Shown here piece by piece: positions 8,365 to 64,000 of a stretch of 64,000 nt of DNA (the first letter of the stretch is position 1; each line of letters starts with the position of its first letter). Both the position numbers and the translations under genes were made by a program. The stretch spans positions 138,768,496 through 138,832,495 of the forward strand of contig CM067369.1 in assembly GCA_034401795.1 (NCBI GenBank), read 5' to 3'. Origin of the DNA: Chaetoderma sp. LZ-2023a (taxonomy: Eukaryota > Mollusca > Caudofoveata > Chaetodermatida > Chaetodermatidae). Under the pieces are notes generated by a model. That model made no database searches. It was not told the DNA's origin and saw only the letters and a program-made list of their open reading frames with translations.

Positions 8365-9336
<972 letters not shown>

Positions 9337-30445: not shown

Positions 30446-31367
30446 ATTTGTGTAGATCATGCCATATTGGGGTTAAAATTGACAAATTGTTGTTGATACA
30501 TTGTAGATAATTAATAAATCAGTGTGTCTTGACTAGAGTGAATAAGTTTTCTATCAATGAAACCTTTTTAAACTTACTTTCAGGGCTTTTTGGAACTAAT
30601 CTGTTGAATAATTTGAAAATAATTTGACTGGAGGACATTGTTGTCTAAGACAGCAATGGCGTACGGGCAAATTAATTTTAAAATATTCAACATAATGTGC
30701 TTTACATTGTCAGAAATTTGGTTTATGAGGGATTTGTTGCCATAAGAATTCTGGACAGTTATTTGGAAAACAATTTGACTGAATGTAGTTGATGGCTAAA
30801 ACAACTGCTCCATTCAGTCAAATTGGTTTAAAAATCTGTTATAATTATGGTATTTATGTGGTATATATAACCTTAAATGAATTCACATTCGTAGTACTTA
30901 ATTTGATCAAGTAGAAAGGTAATCCGCTTCAGTACTGTAAAGCATGCTAATTATCTTGAAAAAAATCTGACTGAATATAATTACAACATAATACAACTAC
31001 TCCTTTCAGTCAAATTGTTTTTAAAATAACCAGCTGTATATATCACCATAATGTCTAAGTAATTTGACAGTGTCCGCCATCAGCGGATTTCAGTGCTGTA
31101 GTCCCAGAGCTGGAGAAGGCAATCAACTTGAATCACATTCTTATCAGCCATGTAGGAATATTAATGAATGTTTTGAAACAAAATTGATTGGAACTTGTGC
31201 TGTCACTCTATTTTCAAAATATTCAACAGTATTCCAACATGGTTGAATCGGATTTAAGCTGATGATTACCTGGTGAATGCTAAAGACTAGATTAAATGTA
31301 CTTTGCAAACATTTAGTCAAGTATCATTTCTACAGTACTATGTAAAATATATACATGTGTACACATA
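30446..31367. other. Intergenic with repeat remnants
   Basis: 30,446-30,690 is a diverged copy of 28,490-28,740 (GTAGATCATGCAATATTGGG-like start). 30,771-30,825 and 30,964-31,017 are inverted repeats with CAATTTGACTGAATG arms. No gene was seen; the open frame near 31,064-31,246 has no recognisable feature. Confidence 0.5.
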
Positions 31368-31776
31368 TACACCTGTGCAAAAGTTAAGCACCACCCTATT
31401 TTTACGCACATGCGAGGGTATATTCATGTGCTATGAAGAAAGCAATAGCATAAACATTCATGTACCCATCCATCTTAGTGCAAGAGGTAATAATGCAACT
31501 AGAGGAATGCTGATTATGATGGTGGGGAAACACTGTATGATTTTGTTTGAACTTGAAAACGAGGCCTGAATATGGTTACGTTGACACAACTGACAACTAT
31601 TGCCCTACAGTTGACACACGTGGCTAGATTGTCATTAATGGTGTCTGAAAACGAAGTTTAACATCTGTTCACGAGTTTGAGACTGCCATTATTAATACCG
31701 GGTATATCCACCTTGTGCCTGGATGACGGCCTGGACACAACGTCTCATGCTGGTCACCAACCGACTGATACGCCAT
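31368..31776 (-). mobile_element. Inverted 3' fragment of the same Tc1/mariner family
   Basis: Begins with the 26-bp terminal repeat preceded by TA (31,366-31,367) and runs as the reverse complement of about 25,963-26,370, so it includes the last ~28 transposase codons (stop at about 31,699 on the minus strand). It is cut off at CGCCAT, where the 36-bp minisatellite begins. Confidence 0.88.
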
Positions 31777-34118
31777 AAAATTTTTCTAGTTCAGGCCCAC
31801 ATAAGCTGCTCTGGAATATTCCTTGTTCAGTTCCACGCAACCTGCTATAGAATATTCCTTTTTCAGGTCCATTTAACCTGAAATATAATATTCCATGTTC
31901 AGTTCTAAGCAACCTGCTATAGAATATTCCTTGTTCAGTTCCACGCAACATGCTATAGAATATCCCTTGGTCAGTTCTACGCAACCTGCTATAGAATATT
32001 CCTTGTTCAGTTCGACGCAACATGCTATAACATATTCCTTATTCAGGCCCTTGTAACCTGCTATAGAATATTCATTGTTCAGTTCGACGCAACATGCTAT
32101 AAAATATTCCTTGTTCAGGCCCTTGTAACCTGCTATAGAATATTACTTGTTCAGTTCAATGTAACCTGCTATGGATTATTCCTTGTTCAGTCCCATGTAA
32201 CCTGCTATAGACTATTCTTTGTTCAGTTCCTCGTAACCTGCTATGGAGTATTCCTTGTTCAGTCCCATGTAACCTGCTATAGATTATTTCTTGTTCAGTT
32301 CCACGTACCCTGCTATAGAATATTTCTTGTTCAGAACCATGTACTCTGCTATATAAATTTTCTTGTTCAGACCCATGGTAACTGCTATAGACTATTCTTT
32401 GTTCAGGACTATGCAACCTGCCATAGAATATTTCTTGTTCAGGCCCTGGTAAACTGCTAAAGAGTATTCTTTGTTCAGTTCCACGTAGCCTGCTATAGAA
32501 TAGCCCTTGTTCAAGCCCATGTAACCTGCCATAGGTTTTTTCTTGTTCAGACCCATGTAACCTGATATAGAGAATTCTTTGTTCAGTTCCACGCAACCTG
32601 TTATAGAATATTTCTTGTTCAGTTCCCCGTAACCTGTTGTGGAATATTCGTTGTTCAGCGCCATGTAACCTGCTATAGAATATTCCTAGTTCAGGCCCAT
32701 GTAACCTGCTATAGAATATTTCTTGTTCAGTTCCACATAACCTGCTATGGAATATTCCTTGTTCAGGTACATGTAACCTGCTATAGACTATTCTGTGTTC
32801 GGTTCCTCTTACACTGCTATAGACTATTTTTTATTCAGGCCCATGTAACCCGCTATACAATATTCCTTGTTCTGTTCAATCTAACCTGTTACAGCTTATG
32901 CCTTGTTCACTCCTATGTAACCTGCTATATAATACTCTTTGTTCAGTCCCATGTAGCTGGCTATAGAATATTCTTCGTTCAGTCCCAGCCAAACTGCAAG
33001 AGAATATTCATTTTTAAGCCCCACGTAGCCTGCTATTGAATATCACGTGTTCAGTTTCTCGTAACCTGCTATAGGATATTCCTTGTTCAGACCCATGCAA
33101 CATGCTATAGAAGATTCTTTGTTTAGTTCCACGCAACTTCCTATAATATATTCCTTGCTCAGTTCCATGCAACCTGCTATAGAATATTTCTTATCCAGGC
33201 GCATATAATCCACTATGGAATATTCCTTGTTCATGTCCATGAAACCTGCTCTAGAATATTCCCTGTTCAGTTTTAGGCAACCTGCTATATAATATTCCTT
33301 GTTCAGTTCCACGCAGCCTGCTATAGAATATTCCTTGTTCAGACCCATGTAACCTGGTATAGACTTTTCTTAGTTCAGGACCATGTAACCTGCTATAGAC
33401 TATTCTTTGTTCAGTTCCATGTAACCTGCAATAGAATATAACTTGTTCAGGTCCATGTAACCTGCAATATAATTTTCCAGCTTCAGGCCTACATAACCTG
33501 CTAGATAATATTCCTTGTTCAGTCCAATCTAACCGGCTACAGCATAATCCTTGTTCAGGCCCATGTAACCTGCTATAGAGTATTCCTTGTTCAGGCCCAG
33601 GTAACCGGCTATAGAATATTCCTTGTACAGGCCCAGGTAACCTGTTATAGAATATTCCGTGTTCAGGCCCATGTAACCTGGAATATAATGTTCCTGCTTT
33701 AGGCCCACATAAGCTGCTATAGACTATTCCTTGTTCAGACCCATGCAACCTGCTATAGAAGATGTCTCGTTCAGTTCCACACAAGCGGCTATAGAATGTT
33801 CCTTGTTCAGTTCCACGCAACCTGCTATAGAATATTCCTTGTTCAGGCCCAGGTAAGCTGCTATAGAATAGTCCTTGTTCAGGCCCATGTAACAAGCTAT
33901 AGACTATTCTTTGTTCAGTTCCACGTAGCCTGCTATAGAATACTCCTTGTTCAGGCGCATGTAATCTGCTATGGAGTATTCCTTGTTCAGGCCCATGTAA
34001 CCTGCTATAGAAATTCCTTGTTCAGGCCCATGTACTCTGCTATAGAATATTCCTTGTTCAGGCCCATGTAACAAGCTATAGACTATTCTTTGTTCAGTTC
34101 CACGTAGCCTGCTATAGA
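31777..34118 (-). repeat. 36-bp minisatellite, block 1 (minus orientation)
   Basis: Tandem units of 36 bp reading, on the minus strand, GGAACTGAACAAGGAATATT then CTATAGCAGGTTGCGT, with about 10-20% differences between neighbours. 31,777-32,573 is an inverted near-copy of 34,269-35,066. Long frames here are repeat artefacts. Confidence 0.93.
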
Positions 34119-34263
34119 GTAGCTGATGATGTCATCCTACCCATCACGTAGCTGATGATGTCATCCTACCCATCACGTAGCTGATGATGTCATCCTACCC
34201 ATCACGTAGCTGATGATGTCATCCTACCCATCAGGTAGCTGATGATGTCATCCTACCCATCAC
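34119..34263. repeat. 29-bp tandem repeat, five copies
   Basis: Unit GTAGCTGATGATGTCATCCT then ACCCATCAC, almost identical in all five copies (one C-to-G change in the fourth). It sits exactly where the 36-bp array changes orientation. Confidence 0.93.
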
Positions 34264-37200
34264 GTAGGTCTCTATATCAGGTTACATGGGTCTGAACAAG
34301 AAAAAACCTATGGCAGGTTACATGGGCTTGAACAAGGGCTATTCTATAGCAGGCTACGTGGAACTGAACAAAGAATACTCTTTAGCAGTTTACCAGGGCC
34401 TGAACAAGAAATATTCTATGGCAGGTTGCATAGTCCTGAACAAAGAATAGTCTATAGCAGTTACCATGGGTCTGAACAAGAAAATTTATATAGCAGAGTA
34501 CATGGTTCTGAACAAGAAATATTCTATAGCAGGGTACGTGGAACTGAACAAGAAATAATCTATAGCAGGTTACATGGGACTGAACAAGGAATAATCCATA
34601 GCAGGTTACGAGGAACTGAACAAAGAATAGTCTATAGCAGGTTACATGGGACTGAACAAGGAATAATCCATAGCAGGTTACATTGAACTGAACAAGTAAT
34701 ATTCTATAGCAGGTTACAAGGGCCTGAACAAGGAATATTTTATAGCATGTTGCGTCGAACTGAACAATGAATATTCTATAGCAGGTTACAAGGGCCTGAA
34801 CAAGGAATATGTTATAGCATGTTGCGTCGAACTGAACAAGGAATATTCTATAGCAGGTTGCGTAGAACTGACCAAGGGATATTCTATAGCATGTTGCGTG
34901 GAACTGAACAAGGAATATTCTATAGCAGGTTGCTTAGAACTGAACATGGAATATTATATTTCAGGTTAAATGGACCTGAAAAAGGAATATTCTATAGCAG
35001 GTTGCGTGGAACTGAACAAGGAATATTCCAGAGCAGCTTATGTGGGCCTGAACTAGAAAAATTTTATTGCAGATTACATGGATCTGAACAAGGAATACTC
35101 TATAGCAGGTTACATGGGCCTGGACAAGGAATATTCTATTGCAGGCTACGTGGAACTGAACAAAGAATAGTCTATAGCCTGTTACATGGGCCTGAACAAG
35201 GATGATTCTATAGCATGCTGCGTGGAACTGAACAAGGAATATTCTATAGCAGGTTGCGTGGGTCTGAAAAAGGACTATTCTATAGCAGGTTGTGTGGAAC
35301 TGAACAAGGAATATTCTATAGCCGGTTGCGTGGAACTGAACAAAGAATCTTCTATGGCAGGTTGCATGGGTCTAAAAAAGGAATATTATATTATACATGG
35401 AACTGAACAAAGAATATTCCATAGCAGGTTACATAGGAGTGAACAAGGAATATGCTGTAACAGGTTAGATTGAACTGAACAAGGAATATTGTATAGCGGG
35501 TTACATGGGCCTGAACAAGGAATATTCTATAGCAGGCTACATGGAACTGAACAAAGAATATTCTATAGCAGGTTACTTGGGCCTGAACAAGGAATACTCT
35601 ATAGCAGGTTGCATGGGCCTGAACAAGGAATATTCTATAGCAGGTTACGTCGGCCTGAAGGAGGAAAATTATATTGCGGGTTACATGGACCTGAACAAGG
35701 AATATTCCATAGCAGGTTGCGTGGAGCTCAACAAGGAATATTCTATTTCAGACTATGTGGAACTGAACAAAGAATAGTCTATAGCAGGTTACATGGGACT
35801 GAACAAGGAATAATCTATAGTATGTTACATGGGACTGAACAAGGAATAATCTATAGCAGGTTATATGGAACTGAACAAGGAATATTCTATAGCAGGTTAC
35901 ATGGAACTGAACAAGGAATATACTATATCAGTTTGCGTAGACCTGAACAAGGAATATTCTATAGCAGGCTACATAGGGCTGAACAAGGAATATTCTATAG
36001 CAGGCTACATGGAACAGAACAAGTGATGTTCTATAACAAGCTACATGGGACTGAACAAGTAATATTCTATAGCAGGTTACAAGGGCCTGAACAAGGAATA
36101 TTTTATAGCATGTTGCGTCGAACTGAACAAGGAATATTCTATAGCAGGCTACATTGGACTGAACAAGGAATATTCTATAACAGGCACCATGGGACTGAAC
36201 AAGGAATATTCTATAGCAGGTTACAAGGGCCTGAACAGGGAATATTGTATAGCATGTTGCGTCGAACTGAACAAGGAATATTCTATAGCAGGTTGCGTAG
36301 AACTGACCAAGGGATATTCTATAGTGTGTTGCGTGGAACTGAACAAGGAATATTCTATAGCAGGTTGTTTAGAACTGAATATGGAATATTCTATTTCAGG
36401 TAACATGGACCTGAAAAATGAATATTCCATAGCAGCTAATGTGGGCCTGAACGAGAAAAATTATATTGCAGGTTACATGGATCTGAACAAGGAATACTCT
36501 TTAGCAGGTTACATGTGCCTGAACAAGGAATATTCTATAGCAAGCTACGTGGAACTGAACAAAGAATAGTCTATAGCTTGTTACATGGGCCTGAACAAGG
36601 ACTATTCTATAGCAGGTTGCGTGGAACTGAACAAGGAATATTCTATAGCCGGTTGCGTGGAACTGAACAAGGAATCTTCTATAGCAGGGTGCATGGGTCT
36701 GAAAAAGGACTATTCTATAGCAGGTTGCGTGGAACTGAACAAGGAATATTCTATAGCCGGTTGCGTGGAACTGAACAAGGAATCTTCTATAGCAGGCTGC
36801 ATGGAACTGAACAAAGAATATTTTATAGCAGGTTACCTGGGCCTGAACAAGGAATACTCTATAGCAGGTTGCATGGGCCTGAACAAGGAATATTCTATAA
36901 CAGGTTACGTCGGCCTGAAGGAGGAAAATTATATTGTGGTTTACATGGATCTGAACAAGGAATATTCCATAGCAGGTTGCGCGGAGCTGAACAAGGAATA
37001 TTCTATTGCAGGTTATGTGGAACTGAACAAAGAATAGTCTATAGCAGGTTTCATGGGCCTGAACAAGGAATATTCTATAGCAGGCTGCGTGGAAATGTAC
37101 AAAGAATATTCTATATCGGGTTGCGTGACACGGAAAAAGGAATATTCTATAGCAGGTTACAAGGACCTGAACAAGGAATATTCTAGAGCAGGTTGAGTGG

Positions 37201-38851
37201 AACTGAACAAGGAATATAGTATAGCAAGTTGCGTGGAACTAAACAAGGAATCGTCTATAGCAGGCTGCATGGGTTTGAACAAGGAATATTCTATAGCAGC
37301 TTACGTGGGCCTAAACAAGGAAAATTCTATAGCAGGTTAGATGGAACTGAACAAGCGTTGTTCATTAACAGGCTACGTGGGGCTTAACAATGAATATTCT
37401 CTTGCAGTTTGGCTGGGACTGAACACAGAGTATTATATAGCAGGTTACATAGGAGTGAACAAGGAATATGCTGTAACAGGTTAGATTGAACTGAACAAGG
37501 AATATTGTATATCATGTTACATGGGCCTGAATAAAAAATAGTCTATAGCAGTTTAAGTGAAACTGAACACAGAATAGTCTATATCAGGTTACATGTACCT
37601 GAACAAGGAATATTCCATAGCAGGTTATGTGGAACTGAACAAGAAATTTTCTATAGCATGTTACATGGCCTGAACAAGGAATATTCCATAGCAGGTTACG
37701 TGGAACTGAACAAGGAATATTCTATAGCAGGTTACATGGGGCTGAACAAGGACTATTCCATAGCAGGTTGCGTGGAACTGAACAAGGAATATTCTATAGC
37801 AGGTTGCTTAGAACTGAACATGGAATATTCTATTTCAGGTTACATGGACCTGAAAAAGGAATATTCCATAGCAGGTTACGTCGGCCTGAAGGAGGAAAAT
37901 TATATTGCGGGTTACATGGATCTGAACAAGGAATATTCCATAGCAGGTTGCGCGGAGCTGAACAAGGAATATTCTATTTCAGGTTATGTGGAACTGAACA
38001 AAGAATAGTCTATAGCAGGTTACATGGGCCTGAACAAGGAATATTCTATAGCAGCTTACGTGGGCCTGAACAAGGAAAATTCTATAGCAGGTTACGTGGA
38101 ACTGAACAAGCGTTGTTCATTAACAGGCTATGTGGGGCTTAAGAATGAATATTCTCTTGCAGTTTGGATGGGACTGAACGAAGAATATTCTATAGCAGGT
38201 TACATAGGAGTGAACAAGGAATATGCTGTAACCGGTTAGATTGAACTGAACAAGGAATATTCTATAGCAGGTTACAAGGGACTGAATAAAGAATATTCTA
38301 TAGCAGTTTAAGTGGAACTGAACACAGAATAGTCTATAGCAGGATATATGTGCCTGAACAAGGAATATTCTATGTCAGGATACGTGGAACTGAACAAAGA
38401 ATAATCTATAGCAGGTTACATTGAACTGAACAAGGAATATTCTATAGCAGGCAACATGGAACTGAACAAGGAATATTATATAGCAGGCTACATGGGCCTG
38501 AACAAGGAATATTCTATAGCAGGTTGCGTGGAACTGAACAAGGAATATTCTATAGCAAGTTACAATGGCCTGAACAAGGAATATTCTAGAGCAGGTTGTG
38601 TGGAACTGAACAAGGAATATATTATAGCAAGTCGCGTGGAACTAAGCAAGGAATCTTCTATAGCATGTTGCATGGGTCTGAACAAGGAATATTCTATAGC
38701 AGCTTATATGGGCCTGAACAAGCGATATTCAATAGCAGGCTACGCGGGGCTTAACAATGAATATTCTCTTGCAGTTTGGATGGGACTGAACGAAGAATAT
38801 TCTATGGCAGGTTACATGGGCCTGATCAAGAAATATTCTGAAAATTTGTTA

Positions 38852-38916
38852 CAATGCAGAGATAGTCTAGAACCTGTGGAATCTGTTTCCACCAGTTCTA
38901 GACTATCTCTGCATTG
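38852..38916. repeat. 65-bp hairpin H1 in higher-order unit
   Basis: CAATGCAGAGATAGTCTAGA pairs with TCTAGACTATCTCTGCATTG; 22 perfect bases plus 7 more with two mismatches, tetra-base loop TCTG. Followed by a conserved ~95-base unique stretch (TTTCTCCCGCACTCGAAGCT onward). Confidence 0.9.
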
Positions 38917-40131
38917 TTTCTCCCGCACTCGAAGCTTAATGTCACTAACACTCTCTTCTGAAAATTTACATGGTGAAGATTTCGGTTTGACTGCTGGGCC
39001 TGATCTGACCAGGTTACATGGGCCTGAACAAGGAATATTCTATAGCAGGCTACATGGAACTGAACAAAGAATATTTTTAGCAGGTTACTTGGGCCTGAAC
39101 AAGGAATACTCTATAGCAGGTTGCATGGGCCTGAACAAGGAATATTCTATTGCAGTTTACGTCGGCCTGAAGGAGGAAAATTATATTGCGGGTTACATGG
39201 ATCTGAACAAGGAATATTCCATAGCATGTTATGTGGAACTGAACAAGAAATTTTCTATAGCATGTTACATGGCCTGAACAAGGAATATTCCATAGCAGGT
39301 TACGTGGAACTGAACAAGGAATATTCTATAGCAGGTTACATGGGGCTGAACAAGGACTATTCCATAGCAGGTTGCGTGGAACTGAACAAGGAATATTCTA
39401 TAGCAGGTTGCTTAGAACTGAACATGGAATATTCTATTTCAGGTTACATGGACCTGAAAAAGGAATATTCCATAGCAGGTTACGTCGGCCTGAAGGAGGA
39501 AAATTATATTGCGGGTTACATGGATCTGAACAAGGAATATTCCATAGCAGGTTGCGCGGAGCTGAACAAGGAATATTCTATTTCAGGTTATGTGGAACTG
39601 AACAAAGAATAGTCTATAGCAGGTTACATGGGCCTGAACAAGGAATATTCTATGTCAGGATACGTGGAACTGAACAAAGAATAATCTATAGCAGGTTACA
39701 TTGAACTGAACAAGGAATATTCTATAGCAGGCAACATGGAACTGAACAAGGAATATTATATAGCAGGCTACATGGGCCTGAACAAGGAATATTCTATAGC
39801 AGGTTGCGTGGAACTGAACAAGGAATATTCTATAGCAAGTTACAATGGCCTGAACAAGGAATATTCTAGAGCAGGTTGTGTGGAACTGAACAAGGAATAT
39901 ATTATAGCAAGTCGCGTGGAACTAAGCAAGGAATCTTCTATAGCATGTTGCATGGGTCTGAACAAGGAATATTCTATAGCAGCTTATATGGGCCTGAACA
40001 AGCGATATTCAATAGCAGGCTACGCGGGGCTTAACAATGAATATTCTCTTGCAGTTTGGATGGGACTGAACGAAGAATATTCTATGGCAGGTTACATGGG
40101 CCTGATCAAGAAATATTCTGAAAATTTGTTA

Positions 40132-40196
40132 CAATGCAGAGATAGTCTAGAACCTGTGGAATCTGTTTCCACCAGTTCTAGACTATCTCTGCATTG
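40132..40196. repeat. 65-bp hairpin H2
   Basis: Identical to H1 and located 1,280 bp downstream of it. Confidence 0.9.
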
Positions 40197-41735
40197 TTTC
40201 TCCCGCACTCGAAGCTTAATGTCACTAACACTCTCTTCTCAAAATTTACATGGTGAAGATTTCGGTTTGACTGCTGGGCCTGATCTGACCAGGTTACATG
40301 GGCCTGAACAAGGAATATTCTATAGCAGGCTACATGGAACTGAACAAAGAATATTTTTAGCAGGTTACTTGGGCCTGAACAAGGAATACTCTATAGCAGG
40401 TTGCATGGGCCTGAACAAGGAATATTCTATTGCAGTTTACGTCGGCCTGAAGGAGGAAAATTATATTGCGGGTTACATGGATCTGAACAAGGAATATTCC
40501 ATAGCAGGTTATGTGGAACTGAACAAGAAATTTTCTATAGCATGTTACATGGCCTGAACAAGGAATATTCCATAGCAGGTTACGTGGAACTGAACAAGGA
40601 ATATTCTATAGCAGGTTACATGGGGCTGAACAAGGACTATTCCATAGCAGGTTGCGTGGAACTGAACAAGGAATATTCTATAGCAGGTTGCTTAGAACTG
40701 AACATGGAATATTCTATTTCAGGTTATATGGACCTGAAAAAGGAATATTCCATAGCAGGTTACGTCGGCCTGAAGGAGGAAAATTATATTGCGGGTTACA
40801 TGGATCTGAACAAGGAATATTCCATAGCAGGTTGCGCGGAGCTGAACAAGGAATATTCTATTTCAGGTTATGTGGAACTGAACAAAGAATAGTCTATAGC
40901 AGGTTACATGGGCCTGAACAAGGAATATTCTATAGCAGCTTACGTGGGCCTGAACAAGGAAAATTCTATAGCAGGTTACGTGGAACTGAACAAGCGTTGT
41001 TCATTAACAGGCTATGTGGGGCTTAAGAATGAATATTCTCTTGCAGTTTGGATGGGACTGAACGAAGAATATTCTATAGCAGGTTACATAGGAGTGAACA
41101 AGGAATATGCTGTAATAGGTTAGATTGAACTGAACAAGGAATATTCTATAGCAGGTTACAAGGGACTGAATAAAGAATAATCTATAGCAGTTTAAGTGGA
41201 ACTGAACACAGAATAGTCTATAGCAGGATATATGTGCCTGAACAAGGAATATTCTATGTCAGGATACGTGGAACTGAACAAAGAATAATCTATAGCAGGT
41301 TACATTGAACTGAACAAGGAATATTCTATAGCAGGCAACATGGAACTGAACAAGGAATATTATATAGCAGGCTACATGGGCCTGAACAAGGAATATTCTA
41401 TAGCAGGTTGCGTGGAACTGAACAAGGAATATTCTATAGCAAGTTACAATGGCCTGAACAAGGAATATTCTAGAGCAGGTTGTGTGGAACTGAACAAGGA
41501 ATATATTATAGCAAGTCGCGTGGAACTAAGCAAGGAATCTTCTATAGCATGTTGCATGGGTCTGAACAAGGAATATTCTATAGCAGCTTATATGGGCCTG
41601 AACAAGCGATATTCAATAGCAGGCTACGCGGGGCTTAACAATGAATATTCTCTTGCAGTTTGGATGGGACTGAACGAAGAATATTCTATGGCAGGTTACA
41701 TGGGCCTGATCAAGAAATATTCTGAAAATTTGTTA

Positions 41736-41800
41736 CAATGCAGAGATAGTCTAGAACCTGTGGAATCTGTTTCCACCAGTTCTAGACTATCTCTGCATTG
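41736..41800. repeat. 65-bp hairpin H3
   Basis: Identical to H1; 1,604 bp after H2. Confidence 0.9.
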
Positions 41801-44566
41801 TTTCTCCCGCACTCGAAGCTTAATGTCACTAACACTCTCTTCTCAAAATTTACATGGTGAAGATTTCGGTTTGACTGCTGGGCCTGATCTGACCAGGTTA
41901 CATGGGCCTAAACAAGGAATATTCTATAGCAGGCTACATGGAACTGAACAAAGAATATTTTTAGCAGGTTACTTGGGCCTGAACAAGGAATACTCTATAG
42001 CAGGTTGCATGGGCCTGAACAAGGAATATTCTATTGCAGTTTACGTCGGCCTGAAGGAGGAAAATTATATTGCGGGTTACATGGATCTGAACAAGGAATA
42101 TTCCATAGCAGGTTGCGCGCAGCTGAACAAGGAATATTCTATTTCAGGTTATGTGGAACTGAACAAAGAATAGTCTATAGCAGGCTACATGGGTCTGAAC
42201 AAGGAATATTCTATAGCAGGCTGCGTGGAACTGAACAAGGAATATTCTATATCGGGTTGCGTGACACTGAAAAAGGAATATTCTATAGCAGGTTACAAGG
42301 GCCTGACCAAGGAATATTCTAGAGCAGGTTGAGTGGAACTGAACAAGGAATATAGTATAGCAAGTTGCGTGGAACTAAACAAGGAATCTTCTATAGCAGG
42401 CTGCATAGGTTTGAACAAGGAATATTCTATAGCAGCTTACGTGGGCCTGAGCAAGGAAAATTCTATAGCAGGTCACGTGGAACTGAACAAGCGTTGTTCA
42501 TTAACAGGCTACGTGGGGCTTAACAATGAATATTCTCTTGCAGTTTGGATGGAACTGAACAAGGATTATTCTATTGTAGGTTACAAGGGACTGAATAAAG
42601 AATATTCTATAGCAGTTTAAGTGGAACTGAACACAGAATAGTCTATAGCAGGTTACATGTGCCTGAACAAGGAATATTCTATTTCAGGATACGTGGAACT
42701 GAACAAAGAATAATCTATAGCAGGTTACATTTAACTGAACAAGGAATATTCTATAGCAGGCAACATGGAACTGAACAAGGAATATTCTATAGCAGGCTAC
42801 ATGGGCCTGAACAAGGTATATTCTATAGCAGGTTGCGTGGAACTGAACAAGGAATATATTATAGCAAGTCGCGTGGAACTAAGCAAGGAATCTTCTATAG
42901 CATGTTGCATGGGTCTGAACAAGGAATATTCTATAGCAGCTAACATGGGCCTGAACAAGTGATATTCAACAGCAGGCTACGCGGGGCTTAACAATGAATA
43001 TTCTCTTGCAGTTTGGATGGGACTGAACGAGGAATATTCTATAGCCGGCTATATGGGACTGGACAAAGAGTATTTTATGGCAGGTTACATAGGAGTGAAC
43101 AAGGAATATGCTGTAACAGGTTAGATTGAACTGAACAAGGAATATTCTATGGCAGGTTACATGGGCCTAAATAAAGAATATTATATAGCAGTTTAAGTGG
43201 AACTGAACACAAAATAGTCTATAGCAGGTTACATGTGCCTGAATAAAGAATATTCCATAACAGGCTACGTGGAACTGAACACAGACTTGTCTATAGCAGG
43301 TTACATGGGCATGAACAAAGACAAATCTATAGCAGTTTACATGTGCCTGAACAAGGAATATTCTATAGCAGGTTGCATGGGCCTGAACAAGGTATATTCT
43401 ATAGCAGGTTGTGAGGAACTGAACAAGAAATATTCTATAACAGGTTGCGTCGAACCGAACAAGGAATATTATATAGCACATTGTGTGAAACCGAACAAGG
43501 AATATTCTATAGCAGGTTGCATGGGCCCGAACAAAAATTATTCTATAGCAGGTTACATGGGGGTGAACAAGAAATATTATGTAGCAGGTTACTAGGGTCT
43601 GACCAAGGTATATTCTATAAAATTGTTACATGGGTCTGAACAAGGGATTTTTCTATAGCAGGTTGCGTGGAACTGAACAAGGAATATTCTAGAGCAAGCT
43701 ATGTTGGCCGTAACAGGGAATAGTCTCTTGCAGGTTGGATCGGACTGAATAAAGAATATTCTATAGCCGACTACATCGGACTGAACAAAGTGTATTCTAT
43801 AGTAGGTTACTTGTGAGTGAACAAGTAATATGCTGTAGGAGATTAGATTGGACTGAACAAGGAATATTCTATAGGAGGTTACGGGGAAAAGAACAAGGTA
43901 TATTCTATAGTATGTTACGTGGAACTGAACACAGAATAGTCTATGGCAGGTTACTTGGGCCTGAACAAGGGATATTATATAGCAGGCCACGTGGAAGAGA
44001 ACAAGGAATATTCTATAGTATGTTACGTGGAACTGAACACAGACTAGTCTATAGCAGGTTCCATGGGCATGGATAGGGAATATTCTATAATAGGCTGCAG
44101 GGAACTGAACAAGGAATATTCTATAGCATGTTGCATGGAACTGAACAAGGAATATTCTATGACAGTTTTCGTGGAACTGAACAAAGTTCAGTCTATAGCC
44201 AGTAACATGGGCCTGTACAAAGAATATTCTATAGCAGGTTACATGGGTCTGAACAAGGAATATTCCTTAGCAGGTTACGTGGGCCTTAACATGGAATATT
44301 CTACAGCCGGTTGCATGGGCCTGAACAAGGAATATTCTATATCAGGTTGCGTGGAAGGGAACAAGGTATATTCTATAGCAGGTTGCAAGGGATTGAAGAA
44401 GGAATATTCTATAGCAGTTTACGTGGAATTAAAAAATGCATATTCTATGTCATGTTACATGAGGATGAACAAATATTATTCTCTAACAGGTTACATAGGT
44501 GTGAACACGGAATATTCTGTAGCAGGTTACATGGGCCTGAACAAGAAATATTCTGAAAAAGTGTTA

Positions 44567-44631
44567 CAATGCAGAGATAGTCTAGAACCGGTGGAATCTG
44601 TTTCCACCAGTTCTAGACTATCTCTGCATTG
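44567..44631. repeat. 65-bp hairpin H4, next to the LTR-like sequence
   Basis: One base differs from H1 (GAACCGGTGG), making the stem better paired. The conserved stretch after it continues into the LTR-like sequence rather than back into 36-bp units. Confidence 0.9.
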
Positions 44632-45333
44632 TTTCTCCCGCACTCGAAGCTTAATGTCACTAACACTCTCTTCTCAAAATGTACATGTTGAAGGTTTCGG
44701 TTTGACTGCTGGGCCTGATCTGAGGTCGTGGTGCACCAGGTAAGGATTGAAGTTTGCCTTCAGCTCAGACTAGATTCCTATGCTATCTCGCTAAACTAAT
44801 CAACCAACAAACGACTGACTTACATAAACGTAAGTTAAATAGATTTATTGAAACTTTATAACTAATATACAAATTCTAAGCAAGAGCAATATCGCTCAAT
44901 AATCAAACAAGTACAATACTATGTACGAAACGGACTAATAGTCTATACTAACTTGAAGTTTGCTCAGAGCTTTCCTTCTAGCACGCTAACTGAACATCAG
45001 CAGGATGTACAGGATTCACGGTGGTGAATTGAATAACTTTCTATACCTGAAAGTTCATCTTTTATAGTACTAGTTCTATGCATATCGTAATAATAAGACT
45101 CCTCCTGAATCTGTTTTAATGACACCTTGATTGGTACGGCTAATCAGTCCACCAATCAACTTCTGCTTATTCCTTCCTAGAAGTTCCTACCTAATAAATA
45201 TTAGTCCTCCTGACCAATCAACGATCCTTTCATTTCGTTGTTGGATGTAAAACCTATTCTACGTAATTCTTTGCTACAGAAGTTGATCGACGCTCCTTGA
45301 TTATGACGTCATTCTGACCAATCAAACTCTGTG
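44632..45333 (-). mobile_element. LTR-like sequence plus leader at the array centre
   Basis: About 600 bp of non-repeat DNA interrupt the array. Read on the minus strand it looks like a long terminal repeat: a CRE-like TGACGTCA (45,304-45,311) and an inverted CCAAT (ATTGGTCAG) near the start, TATAAAAG at 45,066-45,059, AATAAA at 44,849-44,844, then GGTGCACCACGACCTCAGAT, which leads directly into the spacer shared by all hairpin units. TG/CA ends and a target duplication were not clearly identified, and no gag or pol is present. It could also be an unrelated promoter-like fragment. Confidence 0.4.
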
Positions 45334-46678
45334 CTATTCCTTGTTCAGTTCAATCTAACCTGTTACAGCATATTCCTTGTTCACTCCTATGTAACCTGCC
45401 ATAAAATACTCTTTGTCCAGTCCCATATAGCCGGCTATATAATATTCCTCGTTCAGTCCCATCCAAACTGCAAGAGAATATTCATTGTTAAGCCCCGCGT
45501 AGCCTGCTGTTGAATATCACTTGTTCAGGCCCATGTTAGCTGCTATAGAATATTCCTTGTTCAGACCCATGCAACATGCTATAGAAGATTCCTTGCTTAG
45601 TTCCACGCGACTTGCTATAATATATTCCTTGTTCAGTTCCACGCAACCTGCTATAGAATATACCTTGTTCAGGCCCATGTAGCCTGCTATAGAATATTCC
45701 TTGTTCAGTTCCATGTTGCCTGCTATAGAATATTCCTTGTTCAGTTAAATGTAACCTGCTATAGATTATTCTTTGTTCAGTTCCACGTATCCTGAAATAG
45801 AATATTCCTTGTTCAGGCACATGTAACCTGCTATAGACTATTCTGTGTTCAGTTCCACTTAAACTGCTATAGAATATTCTTTATTCAGTCCGTTGTAACC
45901 TACAATAGAATAATCCTTGTTCAGTTCCATCCAAACTGCAAGAGAATATTCATTGTTAAGCCCCACGTAGCCTGTTAATGAACAACGCTTGTTCAGTTCC
46001 ACGTGACCTGCTATAGAATTTTCCTTGCTCAGGCCCATGTAAGCTGCTATAGAATATTCCTTGTTCAAACCTATGCAGCCTGCTATAGAAGATTCCTTGT
46101 TTAGTTCCACGCAACTTGCTATACTATATTCCTTGTTCAGTTCCACTCAACCTGCTCTAGAATATTCCTTGGTCAGGCCCTTGTAACCTGCTATAGAATA
46201 TTCCTTTTTCAGTGTCACGCAACCCGATATAGAATATTCCTTGTTCAGTTCCACGCAGCCTGCTATAGAATATTCCTTGTTCAGACCCATGTAGCCTGCT
46301 ATAGACTATTCTTTGTTCAGTTCCACATAACCTGAAATAGAATATTCCTTGTTCAGTTCCACATAACATGCTATGGAATATTCCTTGTTCAGATCCATGT
46401 AACCCGCAATATAATTTTCCTCCTTCAGGCCGACGTAAACTGCAATAGAATATTCCTTGTTCAGGCCCATGCAACCTGCTATAGAGTATTCCTTGTTCAG
46501 GCCCAAGTAACCTGCTAAAAATATTCTTTGTTCAGTTCCATGTAGCCTGCTATAGAATATTCCTTGTTTAGGCCCATGTAACCTGGTCAGATCAGGCCCA
46601 GCAGTCAAACCGAAATCTTCACCATGTAAATTTTGAGAAGAGAGTGTTAGTGACATTAAGCTTCGAGTGCGGGAGAAA

Positions 46679-46743
46679 CAATGCAGAGATAGTCTAGAAC
46701 TGGTGGAAACAGATTCCACAGGTTCTAGACTATCTCTGCATTG
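46679..46743. repeat. 65-bp hairpin H5
   Basis: Minus-orientation copy of the H1 hairpin in the inverted arm; the mirror partner of H3. Confidence 0.9.
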
Positions 46744-48282
46744 TAACAAATTTTCAGAATATTTCTTGATCAGGCCCATGTAACCTGCCATAGAATATTC
46801 TTCGTTCAGTCCCATCCAAACTGCAAGAGAATATTCATTGTTAAGCCCCGCGTAGCCTGCTATTGAATATCGCTTGTTCAGGCCCATATAAGCTGCTATA
46901 GAATATTCCTTGTTCAGACCCATGCAACATGCTATAGAAGATTCCTTGCTTAGTTCCACGCGACTTGCTATAATATATTCCTTGTTCAGTTCAACACAAC
47001 CTGCTCTAGAATATTCCTTGTTCAGGCCATTGTAACTTGCTATAGAATATTCCTTGTTCAGTTCCACGCAACCTGCTATAGAATATTCCTTGTTCATGCC
47101 CATGTAGCCTGCTATATAATATTCCTTGTTCAGTTCCATGTTGCCTGCTATAGAATATTCCTTGTTCAGTTCAATGTAACCTGCTATAGATTATTCTTTG
47201 TTCAGTTCCACGTATCCTGACATAGAATATTCCTTGTTCAGGCACATATATCCTGCTATAGACTATTCTGTGTTCAGTTCCACTTAAACTGCTATAGAAT
47301 ATTCTTTATTCAGTCCCTTGTAACCTGCTATAGAATATTCCTTGTTCAGTTCAATCTAACCTGTTACAGCATATTCCTTGTTCACTCCTATGTAACCTGC
47401 TATAGAATATTCTTCGTTCAGTCCCATCCAAACTGCAAGAGAATATTCATTCTTAAGCCCCACATAGCCTGTTAATGAACAACGCTTGTTCAGTTCCACG
47501 TAACCTGCTATAGAATTTTCCTTGTTCAGGCCCACGTAAGCTGCTATAGAATATTCCTTGTTCAGGCCCATGTAACCTGCTATAGACTATTCTTTGTTCA
47601 GTTCCACATAACCTGAAATAGAATATTCCTTGTTCAGCTCCGCGCAACCTGCTATGGAATATTCCTTGTTCAGATCCATGTAACCCGCAATATAATTTTC
47701 CTCCTTCAGGCCGACGTAACCTGCTATGGAATATTCCTTTTTCAGGTCCATATAACCTGAAATAGAATATTCCATGTTCAGTTCTAAGCAACCTGCTATA
47801 GAATATTCCTTGTTCAGTTCCACGCAACCTGCTATGGAATAGTCCTTGTTCAGCCCCATGTAACCTGCTATATAATATTCCTTGTTCAGTTCCACGTAAC
47901 CTGCTATGGAATATTCCTTGTTCAGGCCATGTAACATGCTATAGAAAATTTCTTGTTCAGTTCCACATAACCTGCTATGGAATATTCCTTGTTCAGATCC
48001 ATGTAACCCGCAATATAATTTTCCTCCTTCAGGCCGACGTAAACTGCAATAGAATATTCCTTGTTCAGGCCCATGCAACCTGCTATAGAGTATTCCTTGT
48101 TCAGGCCCAAGTAACCTGCTAAAAATATTCTTTGTTCAGTTCCATGTAGCCTGATATAGAATATTCCTTATTCAGGCCCATGTAACCTGGTCAGATCAGG
48201 CCCAGCAGTCAAACCGAAATCTTCACCATGTAAATTTTGAGAAGAGAGTGTTAGTGACATTAAGCTTCGAGTGCGGGAGAAA

Positions 48283-48347
48283 CAATGCAGAGATAGTCTA
48301 GAACTGGTGGAAACAGATTCCACAGGTTCTAGACTATCTCTGCATTG
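48283..48347. repeat. 65-bp hairpin H6
   Basis: Minus-orientation copy, 1,604 bp from H5. Confidence 0.9.
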
Positions 48348-49886
48348 TAACAAATTTTCAGAATATTTCTTGATCAGGCCCATGTAACCTGCCATAGAAT
48401 ATTCTTCGTTCAGTCCCATCCAAACTGCAAGAGAATATTCATTGTTAAGCCCCGCGTAGCCTGCTATTGAATATCGCTTGTTCAGGCCCATATAAGCTGC
48501 TATAGAATATTCCTTGTTCAGACCCATGCAACATGCTATAGAAGATTCCTTGCTTAGTTCCACGGGACTTGCTATAATATATTCCTTGTTCAGTTCCACA
48601 CAACCTGCTCTAGAATATTCCTTGTTCAGGCCATTGTAACTTGCTATAGAATATTCCTTGTTCAGTTCCACGCAACCTGCTATAGAATATTCCTTGTTCA
48701 TGCCCATGTAGCCTGCTATATAATATTCCTTGTTCAGTTCCATGTTGCCTGCTATAGAATATTCCTTGTTCAGTTCAATGTAACCTGCTATAGATTATTC
48801 TTTGTTCAGTTCCACGTATCCTGACATAGAATATTCCTTGTTCAGGCACATATATCCTGCTATAGACTATTCTGTGTTCAGTTCCACTTAAACTGCTATA
48901 GAATATTCTTTATTCAGTCCCTTGTAACCTGCTATAGAATATTCCTTGTTCAGTTCAATCTAACCTGTTACAGCATATTCCTTGTTCACTCCTATGTAAC
49001 CTGCTATAGAATATTCTTCGTTCAGTCCCATCCAAACTGCAAGAGAATATTCATTCTTAAGCCCCACATAGCCTGTTAATGAACAACGCTTGTTCAGTTC
49101 CACGTAACCTGCTATAGAATTTTCCTTGTTCAGGCCCACGTAAGCTGCTATAGAATATTCCTTGTTCAGGCCCATGTAACCTGCTATAGACTATTCTTTG
49201 TTCAGTTCCACATAACCTGAAATAGAATATTCCTTGTTCAGCTCCGCGCAACCTGCTATGGAATATTCCTTGTTCAGATCCATGTAACCCGCAATATAAT
49301 TTTCCTCCTTCAGGCCGACGTAACCTGCTATGGAATATTCCTTTTTCAGGTCCATATAACCTGAAATAGAATATTCCATGTTCAGTTCTAAGCAACCTGC
49401 TATAGAATATTCCTTGTTCAGTTCCACGCAACCTGCTATGGAATAGTCCTTGTTCAGCCCCATGTAACCTGCTATATAATATTCCTTGTTCAGTTCCACG
49501 TAACCTGCTATGGAATATTCCTTGTTCAGGCCATGTAACATGCTATAGAAAATTTCTTGTTCAGTTCCACATAACCTGCTATGGAATATTCCTTGTTCAG
49601 ATCCATGTAACCCGCAATATAATTTTCCTCCTTCAGGCCGACGTAAACTGCAATAGAATATTCCTTGTTCAGGCCCATGCAACCTGCTATAGAGTATTCC
49701 TTGTTCAGGCCCAAGTAACCTGCTAAAAATATTCTTTGTTCAGTTCCATGTAGCCTGATATAGAATATTCCTTATTCAGGCCCATGTAACCTGGTCGGAT
49801 CAGGCCCAGCAGTCAAACCGAAATCTTCACCATGTAAATTTTGAGAAGAGAGTGTTAGTGACATTAAGCTTCGAGTGCGGGAGAAA

Positions 49887-49951
49887 CAATGCAGAGATAG
49901 TCTAGAACTGGTGGAAACAGATTCCACAGGTTCTAGACTATCTCTGCATTG
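49887..49951. repeat. 65-bp hairpin H7
   Basis: Minus-orientation copy, 1,604 bp from H6. The spacer after it has one change (TGTGACAAATT). Confidence 0.9.
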
Positions 49952-51166
49952 TGACAAATTTTCAGAATATTTCTTGATCAGGCCCATGTAACCTGCCATA
50001 GAATATTCTTCGTTCAGTCCCATCCAAACTGCAAGAGAATATTCATTGTTAAGCCCCGCGTAGCCTGCTATTGAATATCGCTTGTTCAGGCCCATATAAG
50101 CTGCTATAGAATATTCCTTGTTCAGACCCATGCAACATGCTATAGAAGATTCCTTGCTTAGTTCCACGGGACTTGCTATAATATATTCCTTGTTCAGTTC
50201 CACACAACCTGCTCTAGAATATTCCTTGTTCAGGCCATTGTAACTTGCTATAGAATATTCCTTGTTCAGTTCCACGCAACCTGCTATAGAATATTCCTTG
50301 TTCAGGCCCATGTAGCCTGCTATATAATATTCCTTGTTCAGTTCCATGTTGCCTGCTATAGAATATTCCTTGTTCAGTTCAATGCAACCTGCTATAGATT
50401 ATTCTTTGTTCAGTTCCACGTATCCTGACATAGAATATTCCTTGTTCAGGCCCATGTAACCTGCTATAGACTATTCTTTGTTCAGTTCCACATAACCTGA
50501 AATAGAATATTCCTTGTTCAGCTCCGCGCAACCTGCTATGGAATATTCCTTGTTCAGATCCATGTAACCCGCAATATAATTTTCCTCCTTCAGGCCGACG
50601 TAACCTGCTATGGAATATTCCTTTTTCAGGTCAATGTAACCTGAAATAGAATATTCCGTGTTCAGTTCTAAGCAACCTGCTATAGAATATTCCTTGTTCA
50701 GTTCCACGCAACCTGCTATGGAATAGTCCTTGTTCAGCCCCATGTAACCTGCTATAGAATATTCCTTGTTCAGTTCCACGTAACCTGCTATGGAATATTC
50801 CTTGTTCAGGCCATGTAACATGCTATAGAAAATTTCTTGTTCAGTTCCACATAACCTGCTATGGAATATTCCTTGTTCAGATCCATGTAACCCGCAATAT
50901 AATTTTCCTCCTTCAGGCCGACGTAAACTGCAATAGAATATTCCTTGTTCAGGCCCATGCAACCTGCTATAGAGTATTCCTTGTTCAGGCCCAAGTAACC
51001 TGCTAAAAATATTCTTTGTTCAGTTCCATGTAGCCTGCTATAGAATATTCCTTGTTCAGGCCCATGTAACCTGGTCAGATCAGGCCCAGCAGTCAAACCG
51101 AAATCTTCACCATGTAAATTTTCAGAAGAGAGTGTTAGTGACATTAAGCTTCGAGTGCGGGAGAAA

Positions 51167-51231
51167 CAATGCAGAGATAGTCTAGAACTGGTGGAAACAG
51201 ATTCCACAGGTTCTAGACTATCTCTGCATTG
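51167..51231. repeat. 65-bp hairpin H8
   Basis: Minus-orientation copy, 1,280 bp from H7. Its spacer reads TTTTCAGAAG like H1 and unlike the others (TTTTGAGAAG), so H1 and H8 are the outermost pair. Confidence 0.9.
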
Positions 51232-51685
51232 TAACAAATTTTCAGAATATTTCTTGATCAGGCCCATGTAACCTGCCATAGAATATTCTTCGTTCAGTCC
51301 CATCCAAACTGCAAGAGAATATTCATTGTTAAGCCCCGCGTAGCCTGCTATTGAATATCGCTTGTTCAGGCCCATATAAGCTGCTATAGAATATTCCTTG
51401 TTCAGACCCATGCAACATGCTATAGAAGATTCCTTGCTTAGTTCCACGCGACTTGCTATAATATATTCCTTGTTCAGTTCCACACAACCTGCTCTAGAAT
51501 ATTCCTTGTTCAGGCCATTGTAACTTGCTATATAATATTCCTTGTTCAGTTCCACGCAACCTGCTATAGAATATTCCTTGTTCAGGCCCATGTAGCCTGC
51601 TATATAATATTCCTTGTTCAGTTCCATGTTGCCTGCTATAGAATATTCCTTGTTCAGTTCAATGTAACCTAACACACGTGTCATG

Positions 51686-52185
51686 NNNNNNNNNNNNNNN
51701 NNNNNNNNNNNNNNNNNNNNNNNNNNNNNNNNNNNNNNNNNNNNNNNNNNNNNNNNNNNNNNNNNNNNNNNNNNNNNNNNNNNNNNNNNNNNNNNNNNNN
51801 NNNNNNNNNNNNNNNNNNNNNNNNNNNNNNNNNNNNNNNNNNNNNNNNNNNNNNNNNNNNNNNNNNNNNNNNNNNNNNNNNNNNNNNNNNNNNNNNNNNN
51901 NNNNNNNNNNNNNNNNNNNNNNNNNNNNNNNNNNNNNNNNNNNNNNNNNNNNNNNNNNNNNNNNNNNNNNNNNNNNNNNNNNNNNNNNNNNNNNNNNNNN
52001 NNNNNNNNNNNNNNNNNNNNNNNNNNNNNNNNNNNNNNNNNNNNNNNNNNNNNNNNNNNNNNNNNNNNNNNNNNNNNNNNNNNNNNNNNNNNNNNNNNNN
52101 NNNNNNNNNNNNNNNNNNNNNNNNNNNNNNNNNNNNNNNNNNNNNNNNNNNNNNNNNNNNNNNNNNNNNNNNNNNNNNNNNNNNN
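51686..52185. other. Assembly gap (500 N)
   Basis: Exactly 500 undetermined bases, the conventional size for a gap of unknown length. The two different minisatellites on either side may not be adjacent in the real chromosome. Frames crossing it are meaningless. Confidence 0.99.
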
Positions 52186-62840: not shown

Positions 62841-64000
62841 CTTCCATCTTTCCCTCCGGACTTCCATCTTTCCCTCCGGCCTTCCCTCCAGCCTTCCATC
62901 TCTCCCTCCGCCTTCCGTCTCTCCCTCCAGCCTTCCATCTCTCCCTCCAGCCTTCCGTCTCTCCCTCCGACCCCCCGTCTCTCCCTCCGGACTTCCGTCT
63001 CTCCCTCCGGCCTTCCGTCTCTCCCTCCGGCCTTCCGTCTCTCCCTCTGGCCTTCTGTCTCTCCCTCAGGCCTTCCGTCTCTCCCTCCGGCCTTCCGGCT
63101 CTCCCTCCAGCCTTCCGGCTCTCCCTCCGGGCTTCCGTCTCTCCCTCCGGCCTTCCGTCTCTCCGTCCGGCCTTCGGTCTCTCCCTCCGGCCTTCCGTCT
63201 CTCCCTCCGGCCTTCCGTCTCTCCCTCCGGACTTCCGTCTCTCCCTCCAGCCTTCCGTCTCTCCCTCCGGCCTTCCGTCTCTCCCTCCGGCCTCCGTCTC
63301 TCCCTCCGGCTTCCGTCTTTCCCTCTGGCCGGAAAGATGGAAGGCCAGAGGGAAAGATGGGAGGCCGGAGGAAAGATGGAATGCCGGAGGGAAAGATGGA
63401 TGGCCGGAGGGAAAGATGGAAGGCCGGAGGGAAAGATGGAAGGCCGGAGGGAAAGATGGAAGGCCAGAGGTAAAGATTCCTCCGGCCTTCCATCTTTCCC
63501 TCCGGCCTTCCATCTTTCCCTCCAGCCTTCCATCTTTCCATCCAGAGGGAAAGATGGAAGGCCGGAGGGAAAGATGGAAGGTCCGGAGGGAAAGATGGAA
63601 GGCCGGAGGGAAAGATGGAAGGCCGGAGGGAAAGATGGAAGGCCGGAGGGAAATATGGAAGGCCGGAGGGAAAGATGGAAGGAAGGCATCTTTCCCTCCG
63701 GCCTTCCGTCTTTCCCTCCGGCCTTCCGTCTTACCCTCCGGCCTTCCGTCTTTCCCTCCGGCCTTCCGTCTTTCCCTCCGGCCTTCAGTCTTTCCCTCCG
63801 GCCTTCTGTCTTTCCCTCCAGCCTTCCGTCTCTCCCTCCGGCCTTCTGTCTCTCCCTCCGGCCTTCCGTCTCTCCCTCGGCCTTCCGTCTCTCCCTCCGG
63901 CCTGCCGTCTCTCCCTCCAGCCTTCCATCTTTCCAGCCAGAGGGAAAGATGGAAGGCCAGAGGGAAAGATGGAAGGCCGGAGAGAAAGATGGAAGGCCGG
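62841..64000. repeat. 20-bp minisatellite, alternating orientation, continues past window
   Basis: Minus to about 63,328, plus to 63,478, minus to 63,540, plus to 63,687, minus to 63,933, then plus. The order repeats the block pattern seen at 59,150-60,320, so this is another higher-order copy. Confidence 0.9.

Follow-up and report, generated by a model that had tools for sequence, protein, structure and literature searches.

The window, by which we mean the whole 64,000-nucleotide stretch of Chaetoderma sp. LZ-2023a DNA that was analysed, contains a 36-bp minisatellite array arranged in three blocks of alternating orientation, minus, plus and minus, of 2.3, 10.3 and 6.3 kb as delimited by TRF (Table 1). 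A giant palindrome is present in the assembly where the plus block faces the right-hand minus block. Self-BLAST paired 38413-43318 with 51670-46766 and 39010-43144 with 49471-45335 in inverted orientation (among 150 of 251 filtered alignments), which bears out the preliminary description of near-identical reverse-complement arms around a 2.2-kb centre. Its arm edges hold except on the left, where it had placed the edge at 38.2 kb, ~0.2 kb too far out; arm identity stops sharply at 38413 and at 43144. The arms differ in length by exactly 1604 bp, or one unit. With unit M2 left out of the minus arm, the two arms are mismatched at 23 of 4732 positions (99.51% identity), all of them substitutions and with no small indel, and removal of M3 instead leaves 24 differences over the same length and no other indel. 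A chance origin of this match is excluded. Hairpin coordinates gave the spacings that had been reported, 1280 and 1604 bp in the plus arm and 1604, 1604 and 1280 bp in the minus arm, and the 1280-bp unit matches the 1604-bp unit but for a clean deletion of 324 bp (9 x 36) that is common to P1 and M1.

Table 1. Features of the locus (positions within the window).
Feature	Position	Strand	Remarks
Tc1-like transposon end	31366..31774	+	99.3% to C55:25109-25517; cut by J1 at 31774/31775
Left minus block of 36-bp array	31775..34118	-	65 copies (TRF)
Second inverted pair	31775..32573	-	inverted copy of 34269-35067; 99.75% over 799 bp
29-bp satellite, between minus and plus blocks	34119..34268	+	five copies
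Plus block of 36-bp array	34269..44554	+	~284 units by TRF
Plus arm of palindrome	38413..43144	+	4732 bp; P0, P1 (1280 bp), P2 (1604 bp), P3 (partial)
Hairpin 1	38851..38917	+	67 bp
Hairpin 2	40131..40197	+	
Hairpin 3	41735..41801	+	
Spacer (centre)	43145..45334		2190 bp; array end, hairpin block, truncated dispersed repeat
Hairpin 4, terminal, in centre	44566..44632	+	23-bp stem plus 7-bp inner stem
Dispersed-repeat fragment, cut at seam	44704..45334	+	2225 first-look candidates, 40 of them scored
Seam J4	45335..45339		5-bp microhomology TATTC, common to the repeat's continuation and the array
Minus arm of palindrome (right minus block)	45335..51670	-	6336 bp; M4 (partial), M3 (1604 bp), M2 (1604 bp), M1 (1280 bp), M0
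Conversion-like patch in M4	46357..46368	-	12 bp
Hairpin 5	46678..46744	-	
M3/M2 tandem pair of 1604-bp units	46745..49952	-	3 differences between them
Hairpin 6	48282..48348	-	
Hairpin 7	49886..49952	-	
Hairpin 8	51166..51232	-	
Other sequence past outer end J5	51671..51685	+	15 bp; J5 junction once in genome
500-N gap	51686..52185		starts 15 bp beyond palindrome

The terminal hairpin has a folding energy of -32.1 kcal/mol as DNA (z -13.2). No hairpin beyond the eight was found in the window even with 4 stem substitutions allowed, and no junction of the locus falls on one. Assignment of the hairpins to a microRNA or other RNA family was rejected, as the best score was 27.6 bits, far below the gathering threshold of 56. 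The array is very probably non-coding. A coding repeat gene was considered and rejected, as the six frames of five arrays each contain 9 to 492 stops, and in both 10-kb arrays every frame has at least 40 stops and so is not open as a coding repeat gene would require (gapped and cut-end units were set aside, which left 263 of the 287 complete units in the window's plus block, for instance). Frame +0 contains fewer stops than column-shuffled units in 5/5 arrays (56/69.9, 60/68.6, 32/39.2, 14/17.0 and 18/19.8, observed/shuffled; shuffle sd 1.7-3.7), and variation peaks at every third position in 10/10 arrays. We infer that both patterns are due to unit types with co-varying columns; a decayed coding origin of the array is possible.

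The inner seam joins the minus arm to a dispersed repeat that is cut there. An LTR-like promoter had been considered at 44724-45334 and was dropped, since that segment is a fragment of this repeat. Without the seam the repeat's normal continuation is TATTCTTCTATGG, and the uncut continuation is found at C55, C13 and C2433. Microhomology of at least 5 bp, as seen at J4, arose in 0.8% of 200,000 random repeat/array junctions, and the seam occurs a single time genome-wide.

With 274 near-exact 32-mer matches, the 36-bp array has a low copy number. Its copies at C55, C1, C2180 and C2230-left have a common 5' flank at ~99%, and therefore look like duplicated segments rather than insertions into new sites. 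Among alignments above the length and identity floors, the C2230-left array is colinear with that of the window and uninverted, at 97.1-99.6% over matched pieces, and has one internal hairpin in place of three. Divergence between the window and C2230-left (0.6-0.9% over three long same-order pieces) exceeds that between the arms (0.49%). Together with the 5-bp seam that is found once in the genome, these data support the recent inverted duplication that had been proposed from the palindrome itself.

Variants within units record what followed. Four derived changes (columns 179, 195, 476 and 1252) are common to M2 and M3 and absent from P1, P2 and M1. The simplest account is therefore that the minus arm acquired the extra 1604-bp unit, M2 or M3, once the inversion had taken place, which refines the earlier claim that one unit was gained or lost on one side. 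Units can also be paired across the arms, by column 110 (P1, M1), column 597 (P2, M2, M3) and the 324-bp deletion. Column 1388, where M1 and M2 but not M3 have a derived C, conflicts with a simple tree and needs conversion or repeated mutation; it might be another trace of conversion besides the patch in M4, which matches P1 throughout, down to a T that is seen elsewhere in P1 alone. Of the gene conversion first suggested, only this one patch stands, and the identity of the arms is explained by recency alone. Polarised differences number 13 in the minus arm against 3 in its plus counterpart (binomial p 0.021, post hoc; the count leaves out the M4 patch, column 156, which is confined to M2, and column 1356, which is confined to M3, and enters column 1388 once, for M1). 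This excess is what a newly copied minus arm predicts, and it could also come from a higher consensus error in the minus arm near the gap.

The left end of the locus (31775-35067) is also rearranged, in a further event. Junction J1 occurs once in the genome and has 2 bp of microhomology, expected by chance in 16% of cases; the Tc1-like element that it cuts runs on in C55 as ATTGTGG at 4/4 exact matches of its last 30 bp. The left minus block matches C2230-left with its order inverted, and the 29-bp satellite beside it is abundant elsewhere in the genome. J2 (34118/34119) has 4 bp in common (GTAG; chance rates were computed for J1 and J4 only), and J3 (34268/34269) has 0 bp of microhomology plus one inserted base, such that microhomology is present at three of the four resolved junctions (J1, J2 and J4).

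We think it probable, if well short of certain, that a hairpin-bearing, low-copy 36-bp array underwent a single recent inverted duplication, through fold-back priming or a template switch equivalent to it. In human fold-back inverted duplications, as reported in PMC3907307, spacers span 766-70,466 bp (median 3,428), and inverted microhomology of 2-8 bp is present at 13/18 junctions without long homologous repeats. At our locus the non-duplicated spacer, at 2190 bp, lies within a range of ~0.8-70 kb, the seam between spacer and inverted copy carries the short inverted microhomology TATTC, and an uninverted ancestral arrangement is represented by C2230-left for the array and by C55, C13 and C2433 for the repeat's continuation; the distal end consists of 15 bp of other sequence followed by the gap. 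A break or stalled fork, to which the hairpins are putatively linked, within the dispersed repeat adjoining the array would have left a 3' end, TATTC, that annealed to a GAATA of the array 2.19 kb behind it; the array would then have been copied in reverse over ~4.7 kb and the end healed with unrelated sequence. Duplication of one 1604-bp unit within the minus arm, as the M2/M3 changes imply, would have come afterwards. The seam, the spacer, the uninverted sister array, the unit-by-unit correspondence of the arms and the M2/M3 changes are all visible in the assembly; against fold-back copying, the break and the timing of synthesis leave no direct sign there, and J3 lacks microhomology. We propose no gene function for the array, which by its behaviour is structurally unstable satellite DNA.

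An assembly artefact appears unlikely from the sequence; in that case the minus arm would stem from the second haplotype, from a chimeric read or from a false join, and would have been put next to the gap in inverted orientation. The arm does end 15 bp short of the 500-N gap, two alleles would also fit the 0.5% divergence and the one-unit difference in length, the assembly has a single instance of the inner seam, of the left edge and of the outer end, and most related arrays are on small contigs. Overlap-based misjoins require long shared sequence, yet only 5 bp are shared at the seam, and a chimeric read should yield arms that are identical or that carry raw-read indels, whereas here there are 23 substitutions and no small indel. 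M2 and M3 also have derived changes in common, and the palindrome is one of several cases, with the second inverted pair at the left end and inverted array pairs on C2230, C13 and C2433 (alignments above the length and identity floors), though all are from the same assembly.

The inverted array pairs on C13, C2433 and C2230, together with the conversion-like P1-to-M4 patch and column 1388, could instead suggest homologous exchange between already opposite arrays, with gene-conversion homogenisation making the arms near-identical. Patchy identity in the C2230 pair, where among the best matches some pieces of at least 300 bp reach 97-99.4% and long gapped alignments 81-86%, would fit such a process. 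We nevertheless regard it as distinctly improbable, as sharp ends of identity and a 5-bp match to a non-array repeat are not what a crossover inside shared array would leave, the inverted arrays on C13 reach at most 88.7% over at least 300 bp, and the units of the window retain their own variants. A Foldback-type DNA transposon (Tetris or Galileo-like) with tandem repeats as its terminal inverted repeats, which the inverted tandem-repeat arms around a different centre resemble (Tetris, as outlined in PMC4079207), has very little chance of being correct, since no element ends are seen here, the copies with a common 5' flank do not lie at unrelated sites, no 3-12 bp direct duplication is found at 38412/51671 (with only 15 bp of outer flank on one side), and the end of the centre is formed by an unrelated dispersed repeat, itself truncated.

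In our judgement it is difficult to observe how long palindromic satellite arrays begin, since the seams of old arrays have disappeared. At this locus one can still read the seam, the spacer, the uninverted sister and the later gain of a unit, making a fold-back origin directly testable, and the readable seam probably shows how giant DNA palindromes arise. A bolder proposal, that fold-back copying is the general generator of macro-dyad satellite architecture and that the window, near the midpoint of C11, is a pericentromere edge where such symmetries are just forming, we consider doubtful; bearing on it, two unrelated tandem repeats (29 and 20 bp) likewise occur in both orientations in blocks of at least 3 copies, and among the best matches the window lies at 49.9% of C11, the C1 copy at 50.3%, and those on C13 and C17 at 6.8% and 62%. 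Two frames of ~200 aa in a candidate larger element on C55 matched no Pfam family.

Fold-back inverted duplications are already known, and the window probably contains a further case, in a minisatellite array. Like the human events described in PMC3907307, it has a spacer of a few kilobases and short inverted microhomology at the seam; those described there are large rearrangements, many adjoining terminal deletions, whereas in the window the inverted copy spans 4.7 kb within a minisatellite, close to the midpoint of a chromosome-sized contig, and J5 meets a gap. ODIRA inverted triplications, for which PMC10766186 proposes an origin in replication error, also contain inverted copies, but in the window two copies face each other across a 2.2-kb spacer. 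Literature searches with the exact strings of the 36-bp unit and the hairpin gave no match. The closest satellite parallel is the macro-dyad arrays of Tribolium, in which, according to a 2026 paper (PMC13081366), such symmetries of satellite arrays have been exclusively documented; no other case was named among the papers that the literature searches listed, and PMC13427858 has the term solely in its reference list. The three blocks of the window are kilobase-long opposite subarrays in a tandem array, as the term macro-dyad demands, and like the Tribolium arrays they are multi-kilobase tandem arrays that switch orientation and have kilobase-hairpin potential. The arrays in Tribolium, as described in that paper, occur in high abundance within megabase (peri)centromeric regions, and their inversion sites are conserved, whereas the 36-bp array is low-copy and its inner seam and outer end in the window occur once each in the genome, though C13 and C2433 have an inverted arrangement in common. 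Relative to what that paper describes, arrays of macro-dyad outline thus occur in this animal too, built from a 36-bp repeat at far smaller copy number.

The window (C11:138768496-138832495 of a 2.44 Gb assembly in 2753 contigs) lies 49.9% of the way along C11; copies of the 36-bp array lie at 50.3% of C1, 6.8% of C13 and 62% of C17. Retroelement and Tc1-type genes stand to the left of the array, where Pfam detects RNase H domains (two frames) and a Tc3-type transposase (domains in one frame); judging from the protein pattern, some of these genes are presumably DIRS. A GTGT microsatellite (8906-9325; 99% pure, ~105 four-base copies) is also present.

Repeat blocks and palindrome arms in the window
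Feature	Position	Strand	Remark
36-bp repeat block	31775-34118	-	
29-bp repeat	34119-34268		five copies
36-bp repeat block	34269-44554	+	
Palindrome plus arm	38413-43144	+	
Palindrome minus arm	45335-51670	-	
36-bp repeat block	45335-51670	-	
500-N gap	51686-52185		20-bp repeat beyond

In array orientation, the plus arm reads P0-P1(1280)-P2(1604)-P3 and the minus arm M0-M1(1280)-M2(1604)-M3(1604)-M4 (unit lengths in bp). P1, P2, M1, M2 and M3 are 99.1-99.8% identical to one another and P3 is 99.4% identical to M4, while identity between these two groups is 90-95%. Over 4732 positions, 23 substitutions separate the arms when M2 is removed and 24 when M3 is; no further indel was found in either comparison.

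Three characters pair units across the arms: a G at column 110 in P1 and M1 (polarised with the P3 paralogue only), a T at column 597 in P2, M2 and M3, and a 324-bp deletion common to P1 and M1. Divergence of the units therefore preceded the inversion. Columns 179, 195, 476 and 1252 carry derived bases common to M2 and M3, as polarised by two related arrays on C2230, the uninverted C2230-left and the part of C2230-right that was covered (84000-92990), suggesting most simply that their duplication postdates the inversion and occurred in the minus arm. Column 1388 is incompatible with a simple tree, since M1 and M2 have C there but M3 has G, as do the two C2230 arrays; it requires conversion or a repeated change. 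At all nine differences between P3 and M4, the P3 base is ancestral by C2230-left, and C2230-right agrees at eight, carrying the M4 base at column 386. Six of the nine fall within 12 bp where M4 matches P1, including a T at 377 otherwise private to P1, a patch that would reflect either conversion-like exchange from arm to arm or a hybrid created by polishing. Outside this patch, 13 polarised changes fall in the minus arm versus 3 in the plus arm (p 0.021, in a test picked after inspection of the data); a change in M0 was scored as derived because P0, P1 and P2 are identical there.

At the inner seam (45334/45335), a dispersed repeat that in C55, C13 and C2433 reads on as CTCTGTGC-TATTC-TTCTATGG switches to the array directly after TATTC. 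The copied array strand is TAGAA-TATTC-CTTG, so 5 bp are common to both sequences at the seam; among 200,000 junctions drawn at random between repeat and array, 0.8% shared at least 5 bp. The inner seam, the left edge (31774/31775) and the outer end (51670/51671) each have one genome match (≤2 mismatches).

A second rearrangement affects the left end, where 31775-32573 and 34269-35067 are inverted copies with 2 differences in 799 positions. In C2230-left, the counterpart of the inverted segment 31775-34122 directly adjoins that of 34340-37083 in uninverted order, which argues that the 5' portion of the window's array was flipped; this portion is bordered by Tc1 and the 29-bp repeat. Microhomology is 2 bp at the left edge and 4 bp at 34118/34119 (judged by where the C2230 match stops, 34122); at 34268/34269, 0 bp are shared and one base is inserted.

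For the 29-bp satellite, the genome contains 5764 near-exact matches. Exact copies, among matches listed in contig order, occur on C11 (window only) and then on contigs from C49 up to at least C58, which are taken to be small unplaced contigs (those sized are C58, 52.7 kb, and C55, 72.9 kb), a distribution of zero-mismatch matches, such that large contigs may carry one-mismatch copies. The five-copy run in the window sits mid-chromosome, unlike the other listed exact copies. C55 is itself an inverted repeat (arms 12.6 kb, 98.7%) with the satellite in opposite orientations at its two ends, and C58 has it in both orientations. Pfam found no family in two C55 open frames of ~200 aa (L021 2157-2792, L020 7384-7959). 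Past the gap, a scan of 52186-64000 and of C11 to about +13.6 kb recovered 70 blocks of the 20-bp repeat (≥3 copies each), 67 of 69 neighbours being opposite in orientation; this repeat is purine-rich, and its larger recurring pattern includes a variable homogeneous plus block.

Genome-wide, the 67-bp hairpin with its surroundings (the hairpin block) occurs in at least eight places, the window included, among the 40 of 2225 candidates that were scored, a list that omits the window's seven other hairpins. A 780-base query matched whole at 96-100% in the window, C2392, C2433, C2230 (twice), C1986 and C55, and C13 reached 95%. The fused hairpin/array junction, a marker of the higher-order unit, occurs 14 times (≤1 mismatch): seven in the window, five on C2230 and one each on C1986 and C2392. 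Of the two hairpins in C2230-left (44883-56167), one is internal and the other terminal. Near-exact matches to a 32-mer of the 36-bp unit number 274 genome-wide, and the array is therefore low-copy. The 5' flank is common to C55, C1, C2180 and C2230-left at ~99%, and to C13 at ~93%.

Further inverted array pairs lie on C13, C2433 and C2230. The C13 pair, at most 88.7% identical over ≥300 bp, is old, and the second C2433 array runs ~340 bp to the contig end. Identity within the C2230 pair is patchy, at 97-99.4% in the best pieces and 81-86% in long gapped alignments; the alignments make this pair look comparatively young, which fits the fold-back reading and the rival one of exchange alike. The arrays on C13 (L013 4855-7602) and C2433 (L011 3357-7715) are opposite to their neighbours and 86% alike between loci, an old inverted arrangement common to both.

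Stops are frequent in every frame of the 36-bp arrays, at ~9-20% below column-shuffled units in frame +0, and third positions are more variable. Linked columns or a decayed coding past could account for both, and the signal is irrelevant to the palindrome. Units in 34269-44554 and in C13 9644130-9654501 fall into two co-varying types with a mild stop shortage in one frame, and unit length is well kept (19 indels vs 14% substitution in the C13 array).

The segment 44555-44640, which contains one of the hairpins, folds as DNA at -32.1 kcal/mol (z -13.2), and such strong 67-bp hairpins might favour breaks. None of the junctions falls on one, and thus the link between hairpins and breaks is one that we infer. 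Yeast foldback inversions are described in PMC7467729 as arising through hairpins of single-stranded DNA, whose loops can be small or large. We class the palindrome among fold-back inverted duplications. To macro-dyad satellites it bears a likeness in outline, clear in one of the three features compared. For the published fold-back class, PMC3907307 gives spacer length and microhomology as reference marks, and the window palindrome matches in both.
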